In this document: positions 1,875-33,536 of the stretch, piece after piece | Layout: each line of letters opens with the position of its first letter | Numbering within the stretch: position 1 is the first letter of the stretch | NCBI GenBank assembly: GCA_021801605.1 | Contig: JAJYXU010000153.1 | Span: 1-35,328, forward strand | From: Bacteroidota bacterium | Lineage (GTDB): Bacteria > Bacteroidota > Ignavibacteria > Ignavibacteriales > Melioribacteraceae | DNA length: 35,328 nt | Direction: 5' to 3' | Notes under the pieces: generated by a model | What the model saw: the letters and a program-made list of their open reading frames with translations, nothing else | Told to the model about the DNA's origin: nothing | The model's database searches: none | Position numbers and translations under genes: made by a program

Positions 1875-2022
1875 GGGTATCTCTAAAAACTATTATTTAA
1901 AAAATAGAACACCGATTTACCCCGTGGAATAAAGTGAAATTTGAATTCTTATTGAATATAATACTATTCCACGGGGTAAACGGATTTTAGCAGATTAGCT
2001 TTAGAAGTTATTAGAGATACCC
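1875..2022. mobile_element. MITE-like palindromic element, copy 1 (148 bp)
   Basis: The ends are inverted repeats beginning GGGTATCTCTAA and matching over about 17 bases with one mismatch. A second, inner perfect 16-bp inverted repeat lies at 1916-1931 and 1965-1980 (core ACCCCGTGGAATA). The element is flanked by a 4-bp direct duplication TAAA (1871-1874 and 2023-2026). It has no coding capacity. A related copy lies at 33279-33437 in the opposite orientation with a different duplication. It starts 17 bp after the stop of the preceding gene and could fold as a large hairpin, so it may also end transcription. The inference is a non-autonomous element moved in trans by a transposase not present here. 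Confidence 0.8.
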
Positions 2023-11049: not shown

Positions 11050-11262
11050 TTCTTTATAACTGAAATTGCGAATACAACTCTCTTCTCTTGGTAAATTAAT
11101 TCTGTTTTCGAATCTGTTTTATGTTGAAGACTCTTTATTATATTAATAGATACTTGTACGCATTCATCATTCTTAATGATTTTAGAAAAATTAATAAAAC
11201 TGGTTAATTCATGGGTAGTTCTAAAAACTTTCACAAAGTGATGGCTATGTCACAAAATTCTT

Positions 11263-11295
11263 CGCGTACTTTGCGAAATCTCTGCGCTCTTTGCG
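11263..11295. repeat. Short imperfect direct repeat (CGCGTACTTTGCG / TGCGCTCTTTGCG)
   Basis: Two 13-base units with a 20-base period differ at three positions. The wording (CTTTGCG, CTCTGCG) resembles short intergenic repeats seen in many Bacteroidota and other genomes. It is seen once here; the repeat family is inferred. Confidence 0.4.
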
Positions 11296-11383
11296 TTTAA
11301 GCTTTCAATAAGATGGTTTTTGGAACCACCCTCATTTTAGTTCAAGAAGGTACTATATAACCTAACAGGAGATATTTTATTAG

Positions 11384-33210: not shown

Positions 33211-33245
33211 AAAAGACCCCGGCTTAAATCGGGGTCTTTTGTTTT
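33211..33245 (+). terminator. Rho-independent terminator of the cold-shock gene
   Basis: An 11-bp perfect stem (AAAAGACCCCG at 33211-33221 with its complement at 33230-33240), an 8-base loop and a T-rich tail. Confidence 0.92.
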
Positions 33246-33278
33246 AAACCAAGGTTAGTTTTCTCTAAAAGAGATTAA

Positions 33279-33437
33279 GGGTATCTCTAATAACTTCAAA
33301 AGCTAATCTGCGAAAATCCGTTTACCCCGTGGAATAGCATTTGTGTTTTTGAAACAATTTGATTCTTAATTTATTCCACGGGGTGAATTCGTTTTATCGG
33401 TGTTCTATTTTTTAAATAATAGTTTTTAGAGATACCC
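33279..33437. mobile_element. MITE-like palindromic element, copy 2 (159 bp, inverted relative to copy 1)
   Basis: The same GGGTATCTCTAA ends and the same inner ACCCCGTGGAATA repeat (33321-33336 and 33372-33387, one mismatch) as the element at 1875-2022, but the left end here matches the right end of that copy. It is flanked by TTAA on both sides (33275-33278 and 33438-33441). The central loop differs in sequence and is longer. It occupies most of the 352-bp gap between the cold-shock and peptidase genes. Confidence 0.8.
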
Positions 33438-33536
33438 TTAAAAGGAAAATAACATTAATACTTTTCTTCGAAACAAAATCGCTGTATTTTGTAATTAACT
33501 TCTAATGATAACTTTTCAACAAGATAAGGAGAAATA

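Follow-up and report, generated by a model that had tools for sequence, protein, structure and literature searches.

The closest described counterparts of the element studied here are the BrickBuilt elements of Porphyromonas gingivalis, IS5-type MITEs with internal repeats (PMC4596501), and the pneumococcal BOX, RUP and SPRITE elements, small modular repeats that cluster and insert into each other (PMC10969869). A type II MITE by definition shares the ends alone with its IS (PMC10969869). The window, i.e., the whole stretch of 35,328 nucleotides that was analysed, corresponds to contig C67 in a draft genome of 3.24 Mb (189 contigs, 99.99% complete) and holds two copies of an element that, like BrickBuilt, is short, non-coding and mostly intergenic, carries internal direct repeats, has ends matching those of IS5-family ISs and contains no transposase remnant. 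Unlike BrickBuilt, it ends in GGGTATCTCTAAAAACT rather than in GAGACCTTTGCA-like sequence, is much shorter, has as internal repeats CGGAT-type units that hold a second palindrome, and is not accompanied by a visible parental IS in the same genome. The likeness to BOX, RUP and SPRITE, drawn by description, lies in the modularity, the clustering and the insertion of one repeat into another, whereas hosts and families differ and the inner repeat is here confined to the units of another repeat (48/48). With IS5-family ISs (NCBIfam NF033581, transpos_IS5_4) the element shares the 17-bp end and TTAA, exactly in one IS (L252) and as a one-base variant in another (L257), but these ISs measure 1.3 kb and carry a transposase, whereas the window element is 148-159 bp long and encodes none. 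Within the papers covered, a literature search with sequence strings found no description of the MITE, of the inner palindrome (hereafter P) or of the CGGAT repeats.

The element is a nest of a MITE, a CGGAT repeat and P, and we regard it as a clear, well-supported case of a known kind of element and not as a new kind. It is very probably a nested type II MITE, mobilised through its ends by a DDE transposase of the IS5 family acting in trans, with P lodged in its CGGAT units and the composite spread as one. Such a transposase would recognise, or would have recognised, the 17-bp ends and place the MITE at AT-rich TWWA sites, giving rise to the 4-bp duplication; the 98-bp base form would be the MITE with a few CGGAT-type units, and P would have become lodged between these units, just as it occurs in free-standing CGGAT repeats at other genomic sites, after which the composite of all three would have spread as a single piece. 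The features of the window are as follows.

1871-1874, no strand: left target-site duplication TAAA of copy 1; in sister genome G005, the orthologous empty site has a single T--A
1875-2022, plus strand: copy 1 of the composite MITE, 148 bp
1875-1891, plus strand: left terminal inverted repeat GGGTATCTCTAAAAACT of copy 1; an IS5-family IS of a Bacteroidales MAG has exactly this left end
1909-1916, plus strand: CGGAT-type repeat unit left of the inner palindrome, copy 1
1916-1980, plus strand: inner palindrome P of copy 1 (core type a); its perfect arms, 16 bp each, lie at 1916-1931 and 1965-1980
1980-1996, plus strand: CGGAT-type repeat units right of the inner palindrome, copy 1 (ACGGATTTTAGCAGATT)
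2006-2022, minus strand: right terminal inverted repeat of copy 1 (GGGTATCTCTAATAACT on the minus strand)
2023-2026, no strand: right target-site duplication TAAA of copy 1
11213-11331, plus strand: sibling MITE of another type, with ends GGGTAGTTCTAAAAACT / GGGTGGTTCCAAAAACC, TCAT flanks and CTTTGCG-type direct repeats
33275-33278, no strand: target-site duplication TTAA of copy 2; a single TTAA stands at the orthologous empty site in sister genome G008
33279-33437, minus strand: copy 2 of the composite MITE, 159 bp; its P has core type b and lies further in by one repeat unit
33321-33387, minus strand: inner palindrome P of copy 2 with short edges; arms CCCCGTGGAATA at 33325-33336 and 33372-33383
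33438-33441, no strand: target-site duplication TTAA of copy 2, other side

The MITE ends are 17 bp long with the consensus GGGTATCTCTAA(A/T)AACT and are kept as terminal inverted repeats across 19 aligned copies; in copy 1, they match perfectly over 12 bp and extend to 17 bp if a single mismatch is allowed (GGGTATCTCTAAAAACT, paired with GGGTATCTCTAATAACT on the opposite strand). Further in, copy 1 has a perfect inverted repeat of 16 bp, made up of TTTACCCCGTGGAATA (1916-1931) and TATTCCACGGGGTAAA (1965-1980). A first-pass annotation, made from the sequence without database searches, had placed copy 1 at 1875-2022 with these ends and this inner repeat, correctly to the base, and had reported TAAA on both sides of copy 1, TTAA on both sides of copy 2 and a second copy at 33279-33437, all of which we confirmed, copy 2 lying on the minus strand and hence inverted relative to copy 1. 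Both stretches are indeed copies of the element, with outer parts 94-98% complementary, but their inner cores are of different types (a versus b), and the repeat unit at which the palindrome is seated also differs between them. Likewise, the outer ends and inner arms of the nested architecture that had been proposed are real, but they do not form one symmetrical design, P being a separate repeat within a third repeat, that of the CGGAT units. The 148-bp element offers no room for a transposase gene. Copy 1 has a gene for a secreted GHL10-type protein on one side and one for a TonB-plug outer-membrane receptor on the other, and copy 2 is neighboured by a short ORF reading as a cold-shock protein and by an M28 peptidase gene. 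The sibling MITE at 11213-11331 has at least 10 relatives in the genome.

Copy counts rest on searches of the genome. The 148-bp element, which the first-pass annotation had suggested using as a query, gave 45 BLAST matches (best E 1e-72), far more than chance would give, and these include further dispersed copies. When the matches were read with their flanks, about 15 near-intact composite copies were counted, together with 5 copies of 98 bp without the inner palindrome, three composites truncated or ended by a contig edge, and several solo ends; near-identical copies number about twenty, most with the inner palindrome. Placement is mostly intergenic or at gene ends, and one copy (C88b) runs across an open frame, near the start of that frame.

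Evidence of transposition came from the flanks and from empty sites. Identical 4-bp flanks (TAAA, TTAA, TTTA or TATA; pattern TWWA) border 14 of the 19 scorable copies, while permutation of the flanks gives a mean of 5.6 identical pairs and reached 14 in 2 of 200,000 permutations, which indicates more than a common target preference; the remaining five copies show a flank mismatch, which amounts to two bases at C88a (TTTA/TAAA) and to a single base at each of the other four. The joined flanks of the 19 sites were also searched against two sister genomes, G005 and G008. The empty site of copy 2 is found in G008, with a 91% ungapped alignment across the junction and a single TTAA, and that of copy 1 in G005, with an 88% alignment and a two-base gap within TAAA. 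Orthologous empty sites thus exist for both window copies, their absence from relatives having been named beforehand as grounds for rejecting transposition. Six further sites of the 19 align as one piece in the sister genomes; at C88b, C99, C47 and C97, the junction of the empty site is aligned well, while at C165a and C3, the single-piece alignment is poor at the junction. The C99 locus matches G008 at 96-98% on both sides. At this same locus (L018 versus L073), G008 has a copy of its own about 60 bp downstream, where the genome holding the window has GTTTTTAAAGCCCCCTAAAC, possibly a scar left by imprecise excision or by a deletion.

An independent check on the 4-bp duplication is offered by a sibling MITE of 87 bp with GGGTAGTTCC ends, which is inserted at C39 into a P core of type c and is bordered by TTTA at either end, the uninterrupted site being given by intact P copies. 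The long-spaced P arms at C39 (151 bp) had been considered as a larger P and turned out to be this sibling MITE inserted in P. Terminal inverted repeats, target-site duplications and multiple dispersed copies without a transposase gene are all present, as in a MITE, and the dispersed copies, 4-bp duplications and orthologous empty sites together bear out non-autonomous transposition. The locus is a clean example of a burst of MITEs in a lineage without cultured members, for which sister species supply the empty sites.

With regard to the mover, an exact scan for the 17-mer was run over one genome per GTDB species and returned at least 111 stretches, chance matches being expected among them. 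Among the matches listed, elements of ~60-170 bp with exact 17-mer ends occur in Victivallales, Treponema, Ruminococcus, Bacteroidales, Cyclobacteriaceae and others, and 4-bp duplications are exact in 51 of 68 of these cross-GTDB elements, versus 5.4 by permutation. Two full ISs with the terminal 17 bases, which the first-pass annotation had proposed looking for, were found, both outside this genome: a complete IS of 1300 bp in an uncultured Bacteroidales MAG (L252), with the exact 17-bp left end and a TTAA duplication, and one of 1303 bp on a viral contig (L257), with a single base of the 17-bp left end changed and also a TTAA duplication. Their proteins (350 and 349 aa, respectively) score 269 and 286 bits against the NCBIfam model IS5_4, the cut-off of which is 140, and both also match Pfam DUF772 and DDE_Tnp_1. 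What is common to the MITE and both ISs is the ends only, with no internal sequence, which fits the definition of a type II MITE; the ends match, and the target duplications are equal in length at 4 bp, as in an IS5-family derivative of this type. The earlier guess of an IS5-type transposase is therefore well supported by outside ISs with the same ends, TTAA duplications and IS5-family transposases. We propose that an IS5 transposase moves the MITE in this lineage and that the mobilisation would be in trans, by a putative autonomous relative proposed from its ends.

Within this genome, an IS5_4 protein query found no IS5_4-like transposase in the 189-contig draft at E <= 0.001, and neither did Pfam DDE_Tnp_1 and DUF772 reveal the parental IS; an IS5_1-type fragment lies at a contig edge, and the one intact DDE_Tnp_1 gene has a nearby inverted repeat that differs from the MITE ends. 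Draft assemblies often lose multi-copy ISs, and the missing local IS5_4 transposase is for that reason weak evidence; the local mover is either missing or unassembled. When pairs of ends 0.8-2.5 kb apart were sought in 12 genomes of the genus, the 20 candidates fetched contained only 80-130-bp elements and one IS1182-like IS.

This last find bears on the alternative that the outer element is moved by an IS1182-type and not an IS5-type transposase. Sister genomes (L113-L129) contain miniature elements with GAGGCTGTCTCAAAAG ends, some of which also carry the CGGAT repeat, and G008 has an IS that ends likewise (L129, 256-1943) and the coding region of which is IS1182-like as recognised by eye; the GAGGCTGTCTCAAAAG ends are loosely similar to those of the MITE (11/17 bases). 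However, neither this IS nor most of the GAGGCTGTCTCAAAAG-ended elements show the clear 4-bp duplication of the MITE family, whereas the IS5_4 ISs combine the exact 17-mer or its one-base variant with TTAA duplications, and among the matches listed for the 17-mer scan (at least 111 stretches), no IS1182-type IS with GGGTATCTCTAAAAACT ends and 4-bp duplications occurs. The IS1182-like IS of G008 thus differs from the MITE both in its ends and in lacking a 4-bp duplication, and we consider an IS1182-type mover very improbable. An IS5-family mover is the reading we retain, and the scan adds to it miniature elements across phyla that have one common 17-bp end tied to IS5-family transposases. Lactococcus hodotermopsidis holds many pairs of a one-base end variant, GGGCATCTCTAAAAACT; in this genome (L191), GGGNAYCTCTAAAAACT within two mismatches gives 44 forward and 40 reverse matches, mostly as close pairs, which we interpret as a sign that related miniature elements underwent a large burst in this member of the Firmicutes.

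The palindromic structure might also be read as a selected RNA or terminator, a role raised in the first-pass annotation, in which case transcripts would form one long hairpin that stops transcription or protects the mRNA, and selection would keep the arms complementary. The predicted folds are very stable (copy 1, -53.9 kcal/mol, z -8.75; copy 2, -50.5 kcal/mol, z -7.2), the copies lie mostly between genes, and MITE hairpins are able to affect expression in other bacteria (PMC10969869). Such folding, however, is expected of any MITE with long inverted repeats. Across 19 copies, 0 of 29 pairs were changed on both sides, the departures from pairing being one-sided and some of them breaking it; few changes exist and power is low, and the low variation among copies makes this result an absence of support, not a disproof. 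Copy 2 moreover lies downstream of a separate, ordinary-looking terminator hairpin (~33215-33243), and Rfam yielded nothing near the gathering threshold for the element. The terminator or RNA role thus found no support and seems improbable to us; no host function is indicated, and the composite probably has none.

P is a palindrome of about 60-66 bp with arms ACCCCGTGGAATA. The 12-bp arm pattern has 103 matches in the genome, versus 2 for a reversed-pattern control, and 48 distinct P copies were read (BLAST lists 40), every one of which lies between CGGAT-type units (…AACGCGGAT GACACGGAT, then P, then ACGGATTTTCACGGATT…); ~30 of the 48 are outside the MITE, without GGGTATCTC ends. The cores fall into types a, b and c, of which b is related to c, and a has only the arms in common with either; that core a might be core b inverted was considered and dropped, shuffling having given no support. 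The 98-bp MITE contains the CGGAT units without interruption, in the composites P occupies more than one unit position, and in free-standing repeats it mostly follows the second CGGAT unit in constant orientation. At C31, the orthologous CGGAT repeat of sister genome G008 is without P, the copy of P that the window genome has at this locus being truncated at its far side. Among 164 genomes of the order, 2 have exact P, namely, this one and G123, of a different genus, where it again sits in a CGGAT repeat; none was found in IMG/VR. A sister-genome locus with half a P (L092), considered as an autonomous P, proved to be a truncated element beside three small non-transposase ORFs.

If P were ancestral to the MITE, the 98-bp copies would be deletion products, in agreement with composites being commoner than 98-bp forms (about 15 versus 5) and with the short direct repeats flanking P, which would permit precise deletion. 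Against such an order of events, P sits at differing repeat units, two core types without detectable similarity beyond the arms occur in the same outer element, P is also found in CGGAT repeats without MITE ends, the orthologous CGGAT locus of G008 lacks it, and outer elements of G008 and G005 (L073, L074) hold only short other inserts and no P, and we give it little chance of being right. P would instead have entered the MITE through insertion or through recombination of CGGAT repeats with one another, and since no clean target duplication was seen at its edges, both routes are possible: (i) P may not transpose at all and may pass from one CGGAT repeat to another through gene conversion or homologous recombination, with the units as homology arms, as suggested by its constant place (after the second unit in most free-standing repeats) and orientation, by the edges just described and by the presence of exact P in just 1 of 163 other genomes of the order searched, although the arms being all that core a has in common with b and c would fit an enzyme recognising arms, and P recurs in a different genus, again inside a CGGAT repeat, so that we place this route a little short of an even chance; and (ii) P may be an independently mobile non-coding palindrome, strictly specific for CGGAT unit junctions through a putative enzyme that recognises only its 13-16-bp arms, with the repeat as a safe landing site from which P then hitch-hikes in IS5-type MITEs, which is conceivable but rather doubtful. 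That P is restricted to CGGAT repeats is the feature of the nested MITE least accounted for, and this constant seat may help to show how small repeats come to nest and spread jointly.

The CGGAT-type repeats themselves are imperfect palindromes of ~90 bp (AATAGAACGCGGAT...ATCCGCGTTCTATT) that occur genus-wide, free-standing or in MITEs with different ends; loci at which they were read (L038, L039, L079, L086, L088 and L091) are intergenic. Beside the position of P, CGGAT units are also broken up by other sequences, namely, the short palindromes CTTGCCTACCGGCAGGCAGG and CTTGCCCCGCTTGCGGGGG and a longer CCTACCGAGTCTGTTGCA...CATTCTGAG repeat, as seen at L074 (1105-1222), L134 (1560-1600), L021 and L034.
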